Positions 12,466-19,216 of a stretch of 64,000 nt of DNA are shown here, piece by piece. The notes beneath the pieces are model-generated. The model ran no database searches. It saw only the letters and a list, made by a program, of their open reading frames with translations, and was not told where the DNA came from. Positions within the stretch are counted from its first letter, which is position 1. Each line of letters begins with the position of its first letter. The stretch covers positions 186,001 through 250,000 of the forward strand of contig JAGWTR010000005.1 of assembly GCA_028868855.1 (NCBI GenBank), given 5' to 3'. Source of the DNA: Burkholderiales bacterium. Lineage in GTDB: Bacteria; Pseudomonadota; Gammaproteobacteria; Burkholderiales; Burkholderiaceae_C. The position numbers and the translations under genes are program-made.

Positions 12466-13089
12466 CTAAAAACGAGATGGAGTGCAGTCGCCCTGGCCAT
12501 GCGCAAGGGCAGGCTCGGACAACATCAAACGACGTGCCAGCGTGCCCAGCCAGACCAGGGCCACACCCACGGCCAAGCAGACCAGGCCAACGCCAAGGTT
12601 TTGCTGGTCGTCGAGCCGATAAGCGTTGCACAGGCGCAGCGTCGAGTCCTGATAGAGCAGCCCGACGATGGCCATCATGGGTAGGACGTTGCCCAAAAAA
12701 AAGCCTTGAACAACAATGCCCGCCGCTGACCAAGAGGACCTCAGGGTTGCCCCGGACAGGATCAGCGCCGCTAGTTTGAGGTGTTCGATGCGCTCATCGA
12801 CCAGCGCCAGGTCCAGGACCCGGGGGATCATCAAAACGGCCAGAACCAGCGCGCTGGCGAGCAAGCCGGTGATACCCAGTTCGTTCCAAATCCTCAGGCG
12901 CATGCGCCACTTGGTTGGGCATGCGGTGATCAGCAAGCCACCCGCCAGCATGACGCTCGGAAACTCAATCAGCATGTGCCGGGCCATGCTGGACTCAAGG
13001 GCGTGCCTCACGAATGGCACGACCAACAAGGTCAATAGCAGCAGGCCAAGAAGGCCCTGGTGCCTGACAAGGCCGTGCCGAAGGCTCAT
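12466..13089 (-). CDS. Integral membrane protein of unknown function, last gene of the nsrR-cco operon
   Basis: I do not recognise this family with confidence. The 207-residue protein has about six hydrophobic helices (around 12-30, 45-58, 72-90, 105-120, 126-145, 165-185), a short basic N-terminus and a hydrophilic tail. It contains His and Cys residues near helix ends (TACPTKWRMR, CNAYRLDD) but no clear metal motif. Its start overlaps the stop of the SCO-like gene (ATGA), so it is translationally coupled to the copper-delivery gene. By position it may help assemble or copper-load the oxidase. A CtaG/CtaA-like role is only a guess. Confidence 0.6.
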   Translation of the reverse strand: MSLRHGLVRHQGLLGLLLLTLLVVPFVRHALESSMARHMLIEFPSVMLAGGLLITACPTKWRMRLRIWNELGITGLLASALVLAVLMIPRVLDLALVDERIEHLKLAALILSGATLRSSWSAAGIVVQGFFLGNVLPMMAIVGLLYQDSTLRLCNAYRLDDQQNLGVGLVCLAVGVALVWLGTLARRLMLSEPALAHGQGDCTPSRF

Positions 13090-13727
13090 CGGTTTGACCC
13101 AGCTGGCAGCAATGACCGAGCAAAGGCCAGGGCCTCGTCTAACTCGCTGTAGTCAAAAATGCGCACCAATCGACCCTGAGCATCCATGACCAGCAAAGCG
13201 GCATTGTGTTCATACCCGCCCATCCCGTCCGGGATGACAAGAACCTGGAATCGATCCAGCAAGTGTTTCAATTCGACCGGGTCGGGAACTGCCGCAAAGC
13301 GCCACAGGCGGGCATCCGCGTGTTGGCGTTCTGCATAGCTTTGCAGCGCTGCACGGGTGTCGCGCCCCGCATCAAAACTGATCGACATCAGGCGCACCCT
13401 GCCCTGCTTGCCGACCAAGCCGTCATCCTTCAACCGGGATTGAAGCTGTTGAAAACCGGAACCCAACGCCGCACACACGCTCTGACAGTTGGTGTAGATC
13501 AGATCGACGATGGTGATGGTCTGGCCATCGGCCAACACCTTGTTCAACGGCAGGCCATCAAGGCCCGGTCCGACCAAGGCCGCAGAAGGCGCTGGCACCG
13601 GGTGCAATTCCACAGCCAGTCGGCGCGCACCTTCAGCGGTCCAGACCTGAAAATCGTGGGTCAGCCACTGGGCCGCACCATAGGCCAGGATTGCCAGGCC
13701 CATGCTGGCCAGTGCGGTGCGCAGCAT
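13086..13727 (-). CDS. SCO1/SenC-family copper chaperone/thiol-disulfide protein
   Basis: SCO proteins deliver copper to, or reduce, the copper site of haem-copper oxidases. The 213-residue protein has an N-terminal membrane anchor (about 4-22) and a thioredoxin fold with the metal-binding Cys pair C-x3-C at 81 and 85 (YTNCQSVCAAL) and the third ligand His174 (GGYEHNAALLVMD). It lies between nsrR and the membrane protein, overlapping both by 1 to 4 bases. The location supports a role in assembling the CuB site of the CcoN protein in the same operon. Confidence 0.88.
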   Translation of the reverse strand: MLRTALASMGLAILAYGAAQWLTHDFQVWTAEGARRLAVELHPVPAPSAALVGPGLDGLPLNKVLADGQTITIVDLIYTNCQSVCAALGSGFQQLQSRLKDDGLVGKQGRVRLMSISFDAGRDTRAALQSYAERQHADARLWRFAAVPDPVELKHLLDRFQVLVIPDGMGGYEHNAALLVMDAQGRLVRIFDYSELDEALAFARSLLPAGSNR

Positions 13728-14197
13728 CAGGACACCGGAGTGCGCTTGCGTCTGCTCACGGCCATCTTTGAGTCACCCACCGAAGTCATTGCGCAAGCAG
13801 GCGGAGGCAGCAGGTCCGCCAGTGTGTAGCCATCCAGGTGCAGCATGAACTTTTGCAGGGCCCCGGCAATGATGCCGGTCAAATTGCATTGCCCCGTCAA
13901 TGTGCAAGTGTTTCCGGTTGAAAAGCATTCGACCAATTCGAAATCGGTTTCGACGCTCCGCACTACATCGCCCAGCTTGATCTGGACGGGTTCGTGCGCC
14001 AGACGCATGCCGCCACCTTTGCCGCGCACCGTTTCGATCCAGCCTCCAAGGGCCAGTTGGTGCGTGATTTTCATCAAATGCGCCTCGGAAATGCGATAGG
14101 CCTGCGCGACCTCGGAGATCGTGCAAAGGCGCTCAGGCCGCTGTGCCACGTACATCAGCAAGCGCAGCGAATAGTCGGTCATCGTCGTCAGGCGCAT
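13727..14197 (-). CDS. nsrR: Rrf2-family nitric-oxide-sensing repressor NsrR
   Basis: NsrR is an iron-sulfur transcriptional repressor released from DNA when NO attacks its cluster. This 156-residue protein starts MRLTTMTDYSLRLLMYVAQR, the standard NsrR N-terminus. It has a winged-helix recognition region (ISEVAQAYRISEAHLMKI), the wing GKGGGMRLA, and three cluster cysteines Cys91, Cys98 and Cys104 (ECFSTGNTCTLTGQC). This spacing fits NsrR rather than IscR, which has a different Cys pattern. It sits inside the operon it probably controls: a candidate NsrR operator is found upstream of the first gene (17616-17638), giving autoregulation. The C-terminal tail (SKMAVSRRKRTPVS) is longer and more basic than usual. 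Confidence 0.92.
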   Translation of the reverse strand: MRLTTMTDYSLRLLMYVAQRPERLCTISEVAQAYRISEAHLMKITHQLALGGWIETVRGKGGGMRLAHEPVQIKLGDVVRSVETDFELVECFSTGNTCTLTGQCNLTGIIAGALQKFMLHLDGYTLADLLPPPACAMTSVGDSKMAVSRRKRTPVS

Positions 14198-14212
14198 CGG
14201 AATTTTCTCCAG

Positions 14213-14818
14213 TCAGGGCGAGTGTGCCGTCAAGGCCTTGAGCTCCTCGCCACCCGCGAAGGGTACCTTGCGTGCACTGCTCTTGCGCTCTTGGGCGAAT
14301 AGCTGCGCGTTCAGCGGGACAGCCTTGTTGGACCATGCTCCCCGCACATAGCTGACGATGGCCGCCAACTCGGCATCGCCCAGATGCTGGAACGAAGGCA
14401 TGGAACCCTTGTAAGTATTGCCGATCACGGCAATCTCACCATTGATCCCGTGCAAGAGAATGTTGACAACCGTGCGTTCATTGCCATTGACCCACTCCGA
14501 GCCATCCAGGGGTGGAAAGACCCCCGGCAAGCCCTTGCCGGTGGCTTGGTGACACGCGGCGCAGTTGGCGCTGAAAAGTGCCTTGCCATCCAGATTGCCG
14601 CCGGCCTGGGCGACAGGCCCGGACAGATCCGCCACGGTTCGGCGGTCGCCCAATTGGGCGTTGCCAAACGCCTCCGAATGGAGGAGGTATCCCACACCAA
14701 ACAGGACAAGCGCCAAGGTGATCGCCGCCACCGTGAGTGGCACCGGCTGATGGCGCTCGGACGGATCGGCTTGCTCACGCCGCTGGGCCAAAGGCGGCGA
14801 CTCTGATTCATTCAACAT
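14213..14818 (-). CDS. Membrane-anchored monohaem cytochrome c
   Basis: This 201-residue protein has a cytoplasmic N-terminus, a membrane helix (about 28-46) and a periplasmic class-I cytochrome c domain with the haem site CAACH (Cys86, Cys89, His90) and probable axial Met140 (KGSMPSF). It takes the place in the operon where a cbb3 oxidase would have diheme CcoP, but carries only one haem. It is therefore probably the electron-entry subunit of the CcoN-CcoO complex. It starts 20 bases after the ccoO stop; nsrR starts 15 bases after its own stop. Confidence 0.85.
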   Translation of the reverse strand: MLNESESPPLAQRREQADPSERHQPVPLTVAAITLALVLFGVGYLLHSEAFGNAQLGDRRTVADLSGPVAQAGGNLDGKALFSANCAACHQATGKGLPGVFPPLDGSEWVNGNERTVVNILLHGINGEIAVIGNTYKGSMPSFQHLGDAELAAIVSYVRGAWSNKAVPLNAQLFAQERKSSARKVPFAGGEELKALTAHSP

Positions 14819-14838
14819 CGACTGACCTCCTGCATTGC

Positions 14839-15429
14839 CTAAAGTTTGGAAGCGGGTGGGAGCACGGGATAGGTGTGATCCATCCCCTGCAGGTACTTGA
14901 CCAGATCGAGCACCTCTGGCGTGGCCACCACGACTTTGCCGACCGGCGTCTGTCCCGGTGGCAGCGACACCACCTGGTCACCCTCCTCTGCGGACTCCTT
15001 GACGGTGAACAGGAACGGATAGGACGGCATGATCGACCCCGGCACGTAGGCGCGCGGCTGATACAGGTGCCCCAGATGCCAGTCCTTGCTGGGCTGGCGA
15101 ACGCCAATGTTGAACAGGTCAGGCCCGGTGCGCATGCTGCCCAGGAGGTGGGGCTTGTCGTAGTAGTAGTCGGCCGGGACAGAGACACGGCCCCAGCCGC
15201 GCGCGAAATCGGGCCCTAGGTGGCGGTCGCGTGGTTGCTGGCTGTGGCAATAGACGCAGCCGTTGGCGATGTACACCGCGCGGCCGCGCAACTGTTGTTC
15301 CGTGTAAGGCTTGAGCCCGGGCAGGGGCTTGAGGTCCCGCACCTGGATGTAGGGCATGACGACCAGCGCTGCCGTGGCGACCCCCAGGGCCGCCATCGCA
15401 CCCGTGGCCAGCTTGATTTCATTGTGCAT
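14839..15429 (-). CDS. ccoO: cbb3-type cytochrome oxidase subunit II (CcoO-like monohaem cytochrome c)
   Basis: CcoO is the monohaem cytochrome c subunit passing electrons to CcoN. The 196-residue protein has an N-terminal membrane helix (about 10-26) and haem motif CVYCH (Cys58, Cys61, His62). The CcoO landmarks ADYYYDKPHLLGS, MRTGPDLFNIG and the axial-Met segment PGSIMPSYPFL follow. It is close to the usual length of about 200. Canonical CcoO has IRPFRDEVERYG after the haem; here this is replaced by QQPRDRHLGPDFARGWG, marking a divergent clade. The ATG at 15429 has a perfect GGAGG site and overlaps the ccoN end by 11 bases. A longer in-frame extension into ccoN lacks a ribosome site. Confidence 0.9.
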   Translation of the reverse strand: MHNEIKLATGAMAALGVATAALVVMPYIQVRDLKPLPGLKPYTEQQLRGRAVYIANGCVYCHSQQPRDRHLGPDFARGWGRVSVPADYYYDKPHLLGSMRTGPDLFNIGVRQPSKDWHLGHLYQPRAYVPGSIMPSYPFLFTVKESAEEGDQVVSLPPGQTPVGKVVVATPEVLDLVKYLQGMDHTYPVLPPASKL

Positions 15430-17071
15430 GAGCTGCCTCCGGTATTGGGTGCGCGAACAGTGCAGCGCCAGCACGGTTGGGGCCAAAGCGCAGCGCCATC
15501 GCCAAGAAATGACCCACGAACACAAAGTGCCCCACGGTCATCAATGCGCCGCCGAGGCTTCGGGCTTTCAGGTACGGCAAGGTCACTGCAACGGAATCCA
15601 TGAACGGCCGTGAGGCGTCGAGCATTGCCGTGCCCTGAAGCCAGCCCCCTGTGCTCAAGCCGATGAAGTAAATCGCGATGCCCACACCGACCAACCAGAA
15701 ATGCAAGGTGATCAATCGTGGATACGGCCACTCCCATTCCAGGACGCGCGGCACCATGAAATAGATGGCGCCAAACAGCACCATGGAGACAAATGCATAC
15801 ATGCCCAAGTGCGCATGCGCCACCGTGAAATGGGTGAAATGGGTGATGGCATTGACGCTTCGCAAGGCCTCCATCGATCCCTGCAATGAAGAGGCCATGT
15901 ACATCAAACCGCCAAACATCATGAACCGCAAGGTGGGGGAGTAACGTGCCAGGGACATCTGGCCTTGGAGTGTGCCCGCCATATTGATGGTGAAGGCCAT
16001 AACGGGGATGACCATCATCACGCTTTGCACGACCGACAAGGTGGTGAGCCAACCAGGGACGGGTCCGCCGATCAGGTGATGACCGCCAACCTGCCCGTAA
16101 AAGAACGCCAAGGTCCAAAAACCCAGCAAGGACAGGTTGTAAGAGCGCACGGGGCGCCCGATGATCTTGGGCAGGAAGTAATAGATGGCCCCAACGCTTA
16201 CCGGCGTGAACCACAGTCCCAAGGCATTGTGGCCGTACCACCAGTTGGTCGTCGCCTGTTGAACACCCGTGTGCACGCCCGGCAACTTGGCCACCAGAAA
16301 CAGCAGCGCGATCCACAACAGGGCCGAAACCATGTACCAGACACTGACATACAGGTGTTCGACCTTGCGGTTGACCAAGGTGAACAGAACCGCAACGATG
16401 ATCATGGCGAAGCCCGCCAGAATGAAGATGGCGATCTGCCAGGGAATCTCCAGGTACTCCATCCCATCGGTCCAGCCGATGGCGATCGCGCCGATGCCTG
16501 CGGCGATCCCCATATTGATGAGACTACCGCCCAGCATGACCCAGGGGGCGCCCATCAATCGGGTGCGCAGCAGCCTGGGTAGTAGCCAAACAATCACTGC
16601 CAGACACCCATTGGAGGCCCAGCCATAAATCACCGCGTTGAGGTGAATGGTTCTGAGCCGCCCAAAGGTCATCCAGGCTTCGCTGACCAGCCAATCTGGC
16701 TCATGCAATTTAAGGGATGACGCCAAGCCTGCCAAAGAGCCAATCAACAGCCAGAAGCAGGCAAACGCGATGAACATGAATACCGCAAAGGCGCTGGAGC
16801 GATCAGAGGCGATGCGGTCGTTCAACTCACCGGAATCGGCGCGTTGAACCGGCAAACGCCTTTCGTGCGCGGCAGCATCCTGCATTGAGATATGCGCCGA
16901 TTTGGCCAACGCAGGGTCGTCCACCTGACCGATTTCTCCGCGCGCAAAAATGACCGTCGCCCCAGTCGGATTTTCGACCAATAAACCTTGACGCATCGAC
17001 CAGATGAAAACAAACAGGCCAATGATCGACAGCACAAAGGCGCCCAGCAGGCTCAATAACGCACTGTCCAT
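15419..17071 (-). CDS. ccoN: Divergent cbb3-type haem-copper oxidase catalytic subunit I (CcoN-like) with CcoS-like N-terminal extension
   Basis: This 550-residue protein is the catalytic subunit. Numbering from the ATG at 17071, it keeps low-spin haem ligands His143 and His421, high-spin haem ligand His419 (HFTVAHAH), CuB ligands His281 (WWYGHNALG), His331 and His332, and the Tyr325 that lies six residues before the His pair, as the cross-linked Tyr of cbb3 oxidases does. It departs from canonical CcoN in other places: GHHLIGGPVP replaces PHHLHYTALP, and SSLQGSMEA replaces STFEGPM, losing that Glu. Residues 1-60 add a helix and a cytoplasmic segment resembling CcoS. It has 12 or more membrane helices after that. 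The GGGAGG site is 5 bases from this ATG; a GTG three bases upstream is possible. Oxygen reduction is likely; NO reduction is possible. Confidence 0.85.
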   Translation of the reverse strand: MDSALLSLLGAFVLSIIGLFVFIWSMRQGLLVENPTGATVIFARGEIGQVDDPALAKSAHISMQDAAAHERRLPVQRADSGELNDRIASDRSSAFAVFMFIAFACFWLLIGSLAGLASSLKLHEPDWLVSEAWMTFGRLRTIHLNAVIYGWASNGCLAVIVWLLPRLLRTRLMGAPWVMLGGSLINMGIAAGIGAIAIGWTDGMEYLEIPWQIAIFILAGFAMIIVAVLFTLVNRKVEHLYVSVWYMVSALLWIALLFLVAKLPGVHTGVQQATTNWWYGHNALGLWFTPVSVGAIYYFLPKIIGRPVRSYNLSLLGFWTLAFFYGQVGGHHLIGGPVPGWLTTLSVVQSVMMVIPVMAFTINMAGTLQGQMSLARYSPTLRFMMFGGLMYMASSLQGSMEALRSVNAITHFTHFTVAHAHLGMYAFVSMVLFGAIYFMVPRVLEWEWPYPRLITLHFWLVGVGIAIYFIGLSTGGWLQGTAMLDASRPFMDSVAVTLPYLKARSLGGALMTVGHFVFVGHFLAMALRFGPNRAGAALFAHPIPEAAHAQ

Positions 17072-17157
17072 CACAGCCTCCCGTGCAACACAGCCATGAC
17101 CACGTCTTGGCGACTCGATTCGCCATGGATATCGACTCTGATCTGCTCAACTTTCAT
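17071..17157 (-). CDS. Possible 28-residue leader peptide coupled to ccoN
   Basis: A short frame beginning MKVEQIRVDIHG fills the gap between the truncated haemoglobin gene and ccoN. Its ATG has a GAGGAA ribosome site six bases upstream and its stop overlaps the ccoN ATG as TGATG, the arrangement seen for translational coupling. It has no membrane segment and I recognise no family. It could be a real small protein or just a coupling leader. Confidence 0.4.
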   Translation of the reverse strand: MKVEQIRVDIHGESSRQDVVMAVLHGRL

Positions 17158-17171
17158 CGTCATTTCCTCGC

Positions 17172-17576
17172 TTACTCACAATCAATGCCCTGAGGGATCT
17201 GCACCGGTTGACGATGCAGCTGATAGCCGTACCACAAGCTCTCAGCGATGCGCTGCGCCAGAAGGTTGGCCCGAGCCTGCATGGGTGAATTACCCAAGGT
17301 TGCCGTGGTTTCACGAAACAGCTGCAACCAGTGCTGGAACATGCTGGCAGACACCCCAGGCAAGGCCGCATGCGTTGGCATGGGCGTGCCACGGAACCGT
17401 GCCGTCCCTCGCAACGCCGATGACCAGAAGTCGACCATCTTGAGTAAATGGGAATCCCAGTTCTTGACGTGGGCGTTGAAGAATGGCCCCAGTAAGGCGT
17501 CTTCACGCACCTTGTCGTAGAAGCTGTAAACCAGATTGGCGACTTCTTCTTCGGTGCAGAGGTCAAGGGTCGGCAT
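17172..17576 (-). CDS. Group III truncated haemoglobin
   Basis: Group III truncated haemoglobins bind O2 and NO; in Campylobacter a member is induced by nitrosative stress through another regulator. The 134-residue protein has the family features: B-helix VYSFYDKVREDALLGPFF, the E-helix region WDSHLLKMVDFWSSALRG, probable proximal His69 (PMPTHAAL) and the G-helix Trp (FQHWLQLF). It is the first gene of the nsrR-cco operon and directly follows the NsrR-type operator and promoter at 17616-17650. That placement suggests it scavenges NO or feeds it to a reaction beside the oxidase. The ATG is at 17576. Confidence 0.9.
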   Translation of the reverse strand: MPTLDLCTEEEVANLVYSFYDKVREDALLGPFFNAHVKNWDSHLLKMVDFWSSALRGTARFRGTPMPTHAALPGVSASMFQHWLQLFRETTATLGNSPMQARANLLAQRIAESLWYGYQLHRQPVQIPQGIDCE

Positions 17577-17615
17577 GATGGGGTCCTGGTCAGCTCAATG
17601 GCGCAGTCGGAGTAC

Positions 17616-17638
17616 AAGATATATTATACATAGATCTT
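17616..17638 (-). promoter_or_regulatory. Candidate NsrR operator
   Basis: This is a 23-bp dyad of the 11-1-11 form typical of NsrR sites. Its outer arms are AAGAT and ATCTT (17616-17620 and 17634-17638), with an AT-rich centre containing TATTATACATA. It covers the predicted -10 box of the operon promoter, the usual location for a repressor, and lies 40 bases before the haemoglobin start codon. The nsrR gene is in the same operon. Confidence 0.8.
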
Positions 17639-17650
17639 ATGCACCAACAA
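17623..17650 (-). promoter_or_regulatory. Promoter of the truncated haemoglobin-cco-nsrR operon
   Basis: Read on the minus strand, TTGTTG (17645-17650) and a consensus TATAAT (17623-17628) are separated by 16 bases. The -10 is inside the NsrR-type dyad, so repressor binding would block RNA polymerase directly. Confidence 0.65.
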
Positions 17651-17773
17651 GGGTCTGTTGACGAATGACTCACGGCTTGACACCATCAAGCTCCTCGCAA
17701 CGCAGGGAAGCTGGCGACCGCGAACGCCCTCACTGCCGACGTTTTCGAGGACCTCCAACCCACGAAGGAGCCG

Positions 17774-19216
17774 ATGATGAAAAAGCTAACCACGGCGGCA
17801 GGCACGCCGGTCGTCGACAACCAGAACACCATGACCGCCGGCCCGCGTGGCCCGGTACTGCTGCAAGACGTCTGGCATCTGGAAAAGCTCGCCCACTTTG
17901 CCCGCGAGGTGATTCCCGAGCGCCGCATGCACGCCAAGGGTTCGGGCGCGTTTGGCACCTTCTCCGTGACCCACGACATCACGCGCTACACCAAGGCCAA
18001 GATCTTCGCGACCATCGGCAAGAAGACGGACCTCTTCATGCGCTTTTCCACCGTGGCTGGCGAGCGTGGAGCGGCCGACGCTGAACGCGACATCCGTGGG
18101 TTCGCGATGAAGTTCTACACGGACGAAGGCAACTGGGACCTGGTGGGCAACAACACGCCGGTGTTCTTCTTTCGCGATCCGCTCAAATTCCCGGACCTCA
18201 ATCACGCGGTCAAACGGGATCCCAAGACCAATCTGCGCAGCGCACAGAACAACTGGGACTTCTGGACCTTGTTGCCCGAGGCACTGCACCAGATCACCAT
18301 CGTGATGAGCGATCGGGGCATCCCGAGTTCGTATCGACACATGCACGGCTTTGGCAGCCACACCTTCAGCTTCATCAATGCACAGAACGAGCGCTTCTGG
18401 GTGAAATTCCACCTGCCTACTCAGCAAGGCATTCAGAACCTGACGGATGCCCAAGCGGAGGCACTGGTCGGCCGCGATCGGGAAAGCGCTCAACGCGACC
18501 TGTTTGAGGCCATCGAACGCCAGGAATTCCCGCGCTGGAAGTTGTTCGTGCAGATCATGCCGGAGAAGGATGCGGCCACCTACCACCTCAACCCCTTCGA
18601 TCTGACCAAGGTCTGGCCTCATGGCGATTTCCCGCTGATTGAAGTGGGCGTGCTGGAGTTGAACCGCAACCCCGAGAACTACTTCGCCGATGTCGAGCAG
18701 GCGGCTTTCAGCCCGGCCAACGTGGTGCCGGGCATCAGTTTCTCGCCAGACCGGATGCTGCAATCGCGCCTGTTTTCCTATGGCGATGCGCAGCGCTACC
18801 GCTTGGGCGTGAATCACCACCAGATCCCGGTGAATGCGCCCAAGTGCCCCTTCCACAGCTATCACCGCGACGGTGCAACGCGGGTGGACGGCAACCACGG
18901 CGCGGCGACGTCTTATGAGCCCAACAGCACAGGCGAATGGCTGGAACAAGCCGATTTTTCAGAGCCGCCGCTGTCACTCGAAGGAGCGGCCGACCACTGG
19001 AACCACCGCGTCGATGAAGACTATTACTCGCAGCCGGGCAATCTATTTCGCCTGATGACGCCGACTCAACAGCAAGTGCTGTTCGACAACACAGCGCGCT
19101 CGGTCGGAGGTGCGTCCAAGGACGTTCAACAGCGCCACATCAGCCATTGCAGCAAGGCCGACCCGGCCTATGGGGCGGGTGTGGCCAACGCCCTGAAAAA
19201 ACTCGCCAAGGCGTGA
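17774..19216 (+). CDS. katA: Monofunctional haem catalase (small-subunit type)
   Basis: This enzyme disproportionates H2O2 to water and oxygen. The 480-residue protein is a typical small-subunit catalase: [15 protein letters not shown] at the N-terminus, active-site His53 ([15 protein letters not shown]), Asn126 ([13 protein letters not shown]) and the proximal haem ligand Tyr336 ([15 protein letters not shown]). It has no signal peptide, so it is cytoplasmic. Translation starts with two consecutive ATGs (17774 and 17777). GAAGGAG at 17764-17770 is better spaced for the second. The 197 bases upstream are shared with the divergent NsrR-controlled operon; I found no OxyR-like or FNR-like site of correct spacing there. 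Confidence 0.96.

Follow-up and report, generated by a model that had tools for sequence, protein, structure and literature searches.

The DNA analysed in this study is a stretch of 64,000 nucleotides (the window) from a Burkholderiales bacterium (assembly GCA_028868855.1, contig JAGWTR010000005.1, positions 186,001 to 250,000). Its subject is a seven-gene operon on the minus strand (17576-12466), which joins a divergent cbb3-like haem-copper oxidase with a truncated haemoglobin, a regulator, a copper chaperone and a membrane protein; the genes are tightly packed or overlapping. All seven lie where the initial annotation had placed them in one operon, and none of them is CcoP, CcoQ, CcoG, CcoH or CcoI, as it had also noticed. 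The features are listed with the Pfam family and E-value where one was assigned.

17616..17638, no strand: NsrR-type 23-bp palindrome (11-1-11) over the likely operon promoter, 18/22 consensus positions
17172..17576, minus strand: truncated haemoglobin (Bac_globin PF01152, 5.3e-05)
15419..17071, minus strand: CcoN-like haem-copper subunit I with an N-terminal CcoS-like helix (COX1 PF00115, 3.4e-83)
about 16937-17071, minus strand: CcoS-like helix of CcoN, residues ~1-45 (resemblance to CcoS, FixS)
14839..15429, minus strand: CcoO/FixO-like monohaem subunit with one CxxCH (FixO PF02433, 1.4e-35)
14213..14818, minus strand: membrane-anchored monohaem cytochrome c with one CxxCH (Cytochrom_C PF00034, 9.9e-14)
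13727..14197, minus strand: NsrR-like Rrf2 regulator with cysteines C-x6-C-x5-C (Rrf2 PF02082, 2e-34)
13086..13727, minus strand: SCO/SenC-like copper chaperone (SCO1-SenC PF02630, 4.5e-09)
12466..13089, minus strand: membrane protein of the sNOR orf1 family, probable SCO assembly partner (neighbourhood and profile A2)

The truncated haemoglobin is presumably of group III, a group assigned by motif. A 30-codon open frame (17071-17163) fills the gap between the globin gene and ccoN; as a gene it was taken to be spurious, and it was not seen by eye in the loci of ten relatives. The cytochrome c reaches only 48 bits against the ccoP model TIGR00782 (cut-off 180), and with its single CxxCH it agrees with the earlier statement that a monohaem cytochrome replaces the dihaem CcoP.

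The CcoN family and the conserved cassette

The start codon of the operon's ccoN is the ATG at 17071. The N-terminus of the protein resembles FixS with an E-value of 0.017, under the Pfam cut-off, and in one relative (L157; the compared loci carry L numbers) the N-terminal FixS match on CcoN exceeds it. L155 and L156 have a ccoN without the extension, directly preceded by a separate ccoS-like gene (FixS match over the cut-off in L155, slightly under it in L156), and no FixS match was seen in relative L042. The N-terminal CcoS-like helix therefore suggests that CcoS is fused to CcoN, rather than missing.

Against model TIGR00780, the CcoN of the window scores 279 bits, under the cut-off of 583. 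Full-length matches to this model in 185 genomes fall into two sets, a canonical one of 556-801 bits and a divergent one of 220-279 bits. Among known structures, the protein matches CcoN at 1.6e-60 and NorB only at 4.8e-04. A phylogenetic tree was constructed from 72 rows, namely 22 of the operon's CcoN family, 4 and 13 of two more distant groups, 31 canonical CcoN, and 2 NorB; the rows comprise the CcoN and NorB families only, with no A- or B-family rows, and the program flagged long branches. In this tree the operon's CcoN family and canonical CcoN are separate clades, supported by 98/92 and 99/99, respectively. Thus, in answer to the phylogenetic check that the initial annotation had proposed, the operon's CcoN lies outside ordinary CcoN and away from NorB. 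Since it groups with CcoN and not with NorB, and has a CcoO partner of the FixO family, it is a C-family haem-copper oxidase in the wide sense.

Residues were compared over the 22 rows of the operon's CcoN family, with Pseudomonas stutzeri CcoN (3mk7) as the reference. The histidines of haem b, haem b3 and CuB and the cross-link tyrosine (H143, H281, Y325, H331, H332, H419, H421) are present in 22/22 rows. Y251, E122 and E125 are kept, save for one M at E122, as are Y223, S240, N289 and Y317. The enzyme is thus alike to canonical cbb3 (ccoNOQP) in its CcoN family, its ligands, its cross-link tyrosine and its monohaem CcoO subunit. It is unlike canonical cbb3 in its low TIGR00780 score, its separate clade, its fused CcoS, its monohaem cytochrome in the place of dihaem CcoP, its own SCO and orf1, and the exchanges H243 to G and E323 to Q.

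The CcoN type was found in 21 of 150 family genomes (from 141 genera; the four family searches were taken as covering the identical 150), the source genome included, and was not found in the single other genome of the source genus in this sample. The GTDB family of the source genome also includes a genome of Rhodoferax and one of Ideonella. Named genomes were scanned with an alignment of 15 members; 350 relatives resulted, and the best 80 of them were used. Together with 20 stretches from family genomes, and minus seven with identical CcoN ends, they make up 93 distinct loci; flank lengths vary, and the counts of neighbouring genes in these loci are lower bounds.

All 81 loci with at least 3.5 kb downstream show the complete order CcoN-CcoO-cytochrome c-SCO-membrane protein, 80 of them by script and L033 by eye (the script picked a second SCO there; the first unit is complete). 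Therefore, the linkage of these five genes is not due to chance. The remaining neighbours are optional. Similar globins occur in 21/93 loci and an nsrR-like gene in 24/93, in 13 of these inside the operon as in the source genome; both together occur in 16/93. Of the co-occurrence that the initial annotation had asked about, the SCO part is constant with the CcoN clade, whereas the nsrR-like and globin genes are not. NnrS is encoded in 10/93 loci and a NorB-like protein in 5/93. A FdxA-like ferredoxin gene was seen in ten loci, at a median offset directly before ccoN; that of L076 (7605-7949) has Fer4 and DUF3470 domains.

The regulator and the NsrR-type sites

The regulator was named NsrR in the initial annotation. 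Its Rrf2 family, its three cysteines and the operator-type site speak for that name; its scores do not, since it reaches 117 bits with the NsrR model (cut-off 182) and scores as well with the RirA model (122, cut-off 193). The regulators of relatives, and one linked with sNOR, score 125-148 bits and are likewise under the NsrR cut-off. In the source genome it has no other close NsrR relative, its single further match being 23% identical.

Sites were scored over the 22 positions of a longer form of the NsrR consensus. The operon palindrome, AAGATCTATGTATAATATATCTT, agrees with it at 18 of these positions; the G of GATG is C in one half and A in the other. It is the best NsrR-type palindrome in the window, followed by one of 14, and 15 dinucleotide shuffles of the window gave 17 at most. 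A TATAAT lies inside it by eye; a scan for consensus promoters gave no site at 17550-17800. The published NsrR motif is gATGyAT-N5-ATrCATc (PMC1274295). In the 3.4-Mb source genome, a strict motif has two matches, one at the operon and one ~50 bases before sufB (L190, 6719-6741), behind which sufCDS-like genes follow by eye.

Of the 93 loci of relatives, 43 have a site of at least 16/22 in the 2.5 kb upstream, as compared with 17/1860 shuffles and 4/82 downstream stretches. The set used for this count excludes four duplicates and three loci whose upstream DNA is short; three near-duplicates remain in it, and some of the sites may belong to other upstream genes, e.g. nnrS. Such sites are present in 19/25 loci with an nsrR-like gene and in 24/68 without. 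Hydrogenophaga sp. IBVHS1, Ramlibacter alkalitolerans and Acidovorax soli are carriers that combine a site with an nsrR-like gene and a globin. With a looser motif, 14 genomes that have an nsrR-like gene by the cassette gave 15 matches in 10 of the 14, and the reversed control gave zero. Nine of the matches are the operon sites, with identical letters; of the remaining six, five precede nirK, nnrS, two hemerythrin genes and an iron-binding-protein-like gene (by eye), and one is at an unclear place. The two hemerythrin genes follow their sites at L198 ~1475 (Pfam-checked) and L203 ~1475 (by eye).

The sufB site raises the alternative that the operon encodes an oxidase for iron or Fe-S shortage, co-regulated with suf by an Rrf2 protein that senses Fe-S or iron status. 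The RirA model scores slightly above the NsrR model, four loci have a SufB gene within 8 kb of the cassette and four have a gene for a SufS-like aminotransferase (one each Pfam-checked), the site of one relative precedes the iron-binding-protein-like gene, and a catalase gene is divergent from the operon, all of which agree with such a role. Identification of the regulator with RirA or a SUF regulator is nevertheless weakened by the relatives' sites before nirK, nnrS and hemerythrin genes; moreover, a haem-rich enzyme appears poorly suited to iron shortage, and carriers of the cassette are enriched in nitrite reductase (see below). This alternative was kept as a rival, and we regard it as improbable. 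The catalase-like gene, identified by frame reading, lies at 17774-19216 on the plus strand and has the intergenic region with the NsrR-type site in common with the operon.

The orf1 family, sNOR and the reaction catalysed

The initial annotation had described the last gene of the operon as an unknown membrane protein. The gene is present at its place; its kind can be given. No Pfam family was found over the cut-off (weak matches to DUF1404 and VIT1 lie below), and a structural model with a predicted local distance difference test score (pLDDT) of 91.9 gave no fold match in the PDB, with a best E-value of 2.2. Profile A2 of the protein matches at 1e-08 in 7 of 274 genomes of the class, namely the source genome and six others; at most 11 candidates per genome were scored, so that misses are possible in this count. 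In all six others, the membrane protein closes a NorS-NorY-SCO cluster, which by gene order is norSY-senC-orf1. In two strains of Nitrosomonas eutropha there are two copies each, one in the CcoN cassette and one closing NorS-NorY-SCO. The membrane protein of the operon therefore belongs to the orf1 family of sNOR clusters, and the C-family unit and sNOR have the SCO-orf1 pair in common.

In N. eutropha, norSY-senC-orf1 has been described as a heme-copper nitric oxide reductase (PMC3764937), and an oxidase role for sNOR has also been argued (PMC6967387). The operon is alike to sNOR clusters in that SCO and orf1 stand behind the catalytic genes. The catalytic genes themselves differ, those of the operon being CcoN and CcoO, whereas sNOR has the catalytic NorY (B-type according to PMC6967387), without the cross-link tyrosine, and the cupredoxin-like NorS (COX2). 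In nine sNOR loci, NorY has Asn where the aa3 oxidase of the source genome has the cross-link Tyr (seven aligned, two read). A further likeness is the regulatory DNA: an NsrR-type site of 16-18 of 22 positions lies directly before norS in 6/6 sNOR loci of the class (counted with no shuffles), and one of 20/22 does so in L033. In two strains of N. eutropha, no such site was found at the sNOR locus; the best matches there reach 15 and 14, and they do not lie before norS. An nsrR-like gene is near the sNOR cluster in 4/6 class genomes, and in L033 (7737-15292), nnrS and an NsrR-like gene are followed by a cbb3-like and an sNOR unit in tandem, both of which include SCO and orf1.

The initial annotation had proposed either an oxidase that works when nitric oxide (NO) has poisoned the others or a new type of NO reductase. 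The retained cross-link tyrosine (22/22), set against the Asn in NorY of the nine sNOR loci, would favour the oxidase, as far as sequence can tell. On balance, the operon probably encodes an NO-induced second C-family haem-copper oxygen reductase, which would be NO-tolerant and perhaps NO-consuming.

NsrR is known to lose its Fe-S cluster on exposure to NO. If this carries over to the regulator of the operon, NO would destroy the Fe-S cluster of the NsrR-like repressor and free the palindrome at 17616-17638. In the cytoplasm, NO might then be bound or oxidised by the globin. The oxidase complex would consist of CcoN, to which the CcoS helix is fused, together with CcoO and the monohaem cytochrome c; its electrons would come from the pool of cytochrome c, and its CuB may be loaded by SCO and the orf1-type membrane protein. 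Such an oxidase could sustain O2 respiration when the other oxidases are impaired by NO, and it may itself remove some NO.

Several observations weigh against this reading of the operon. H243 is G in 22/22 rows and E323 is Q in 21/22 (P. stutzeri numbering). We take both to belong to the polar residues of the K-channel, of which Y223, S240, N289 and Y317 are kept, and proton uptake may therefore differ from that of a normal oxidase. Q at the E323 position is also found in the more distant groups L155-158 and L159-171. The SCO-orf1 pair is also that of sNOR, which one publication lists among the heme-copper nitric oxide reductases (PMC3764937), and according to a review, the main poison of haem-copper oxidases in vivo is nitrite and not NO (PMC8780969). 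The regulator is under the NsrR cut-off and fits the RirA model as well; with the second site at suf, the operon may respond to Fe-S or iron status, and Fe-S damage could be the wider signal. An nsrR-like gene is absent nearby in 69/93 relatives, and a good NsrR-type site was not found in 50/93, among them N. eutropha with three cassette loci (best 13/22). One of the relatives without such a site is L066 (Polaromonas sp. JS666; best 13). Therefore, of the NsrR control suggested at first, the palindrome on the operon promoter and the sites of the relatives remain; with nsrR and globin optional and N. eutropha without a site, the enzyme is not defined by this control. The group L159-L171 is a further divergent CcoN group, ~30% identical, in which no SCO- or orf1-like neighbours were found by blastp with the SCO and orf1 proteins of the cassette.

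In the chief rival reading, possible if on the whole doubtful, the enzyme is dedicated to the reduction of NO. It would then be the C-family counterpart of sNOR, with NO to N2O as its main physiological reaction and with the SCO-orf1 pair of sNOR. This pair, the tandem units of L033 with nnrS and the NsrR gene, and the sites before norS in six class genomes and L033 can all be understood in this way, and NO reduction is known from the P. stutzeri cbb3 oxidase (PMC8780969). The cross-link tyrosine argues in the opposite direction, since it is lost in sNOR and is I in both NorB rows, which sets the operon's CcoN apart from the cNOR/qNOR type. The glutamate beside the first metal histidine of NorB, which we take to be an FeB ligand, has no counterpart in CcoN by sequence reading, with no column count. 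A NorB match is absent in 9/18 carriers of the cassette that have a nitrite reductase, which would suit an NO reductase; the lack is not special, since 14/36 nitrite-reductase genomes that are non-carriers lack NorB too, and nine carriers including the source genome already have NorB. The idea that missing NorB marks the cassette as the NO reductase of nitrite reducers was therefore dropped. One possible evolutionary scheme, distinctly doubtful, suggests a new C-family NO reductase that kept the oxidase tyrosine and uses a monohaem CcoO and a cytochrome c, an old CcoN lineage having gained the SCO-orf1 pair and NsrR control known from sNOR clusters. If an NO reductase it were, it would close the NO step in those nitrite reducers without NorB (9/18 such carriers).

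Genome context and related systems

The source genome has a ccoN-ccoO-ccoP cluster with ccoS and ccoI ~56 kb from the operon, outside the window. Its three further COX1 proteins are an aa3 oxidase, this canonical CcoN, and NorB with NorC (names besides COX1 are by reading of open frames), and it has four cytochrome d1 (NirS family) matches. In the family sample, carriers are enriched in NO-forming nitrite reductases, a co-occurrence that counts in favour of the NO-induced oxygen reductase: a cytochrome d1 or NirK match occurs in 18/21 carriers versus 36/129 non-carriers (p 6.5e-07; the cytochrome d1 family also includes NirF and NirN, and NirK was counted at E 1e-20). With the curated NirK cut-off, the counts are 17/21 and 33/129. 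NorB occurs in 9/21 carriers (source genome included) versus 26/129 non-carriers (p 0.047). The genomes are not independent in these statistics.

The same enrichment in nitrite reductase is equally expected of low-O2 specialists, and it appears very improbable to us, but conceivable, that the enzyme is a low-O2 niche paralogue of ordinary cbb3, whose link with NO genes merely reflects the low-O2 life of denitrifiers. The many relatives with no nsrR-like gene nearby (69/93) would fit, and so would N. eutropha, which has no NsrR-type site at the cassette and whose C-type oxidase is called a high-affinity cbb3 (PMC6967387). In N. eutropha Nm24, the cassette (L109, 8001-12317) is the only C-type match, and the sNOR cluster (L211, 3321-6640) is ~47 kb away on the same contig. 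The 'high-affinity cbb3' of PMC6967387, although of another strain, is therefore probably the operon's enzyme. On the other side, a canonical ccoN is already present beside the cassette in nine of ten named genomes (Nm24 is the exception), and the operator-type sites and the nnrS, globin and NsrR neighbours point to NO. The CcoN of Nm24 is placed inside the Comamonadaceae part of the tree, which suggests that this strain acquired the cassette by transfer.

If the operon indeed encodes an oxygen reductase for NO conditions, a haem-copper oxidase dedicated to such conditions would be present in 21/150 family genomes and in N. eutropha. Counts of gene families that rely on FixO or COX1 would class the enzyme as an ordinary cbb3. 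The common assembly pair links C-family oxidases with sNOR, so that the question of O2 or NO as substrate of sNOR-type enzymes becomes testable in a second enzyme; should it reduce NO, genome-based predictions of N2O release would be different.

No description of an NsrR-controlled cbb3-like operon was found in the literature by title and start of abstract, a search whose coverage mostly excludes subscription literature, and the available parts of two near candidates (PMC6769254 and PMC6080646) describe none. Two known systems may be compared with the proposed role.

The AOX of Vibrio fischeri is a non-haem quinol oxidase and, as a protein, unrelated to the operon's enzyme. It is alike in role, being an NO-resistant terminal oxidase under the control of NsrR (PMC5156696; this control was predicted in PMC1274295). 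The ccoN4/MpaR system of Pseudomonas aeruginosa is alike in that a poison induces an extra C-type subunit, with the regulator in the neighbouring gene (PMC10790758); it differs in that the poison is cyanide and ccoN4 is an orphan subunit of cbb3-type complexes.

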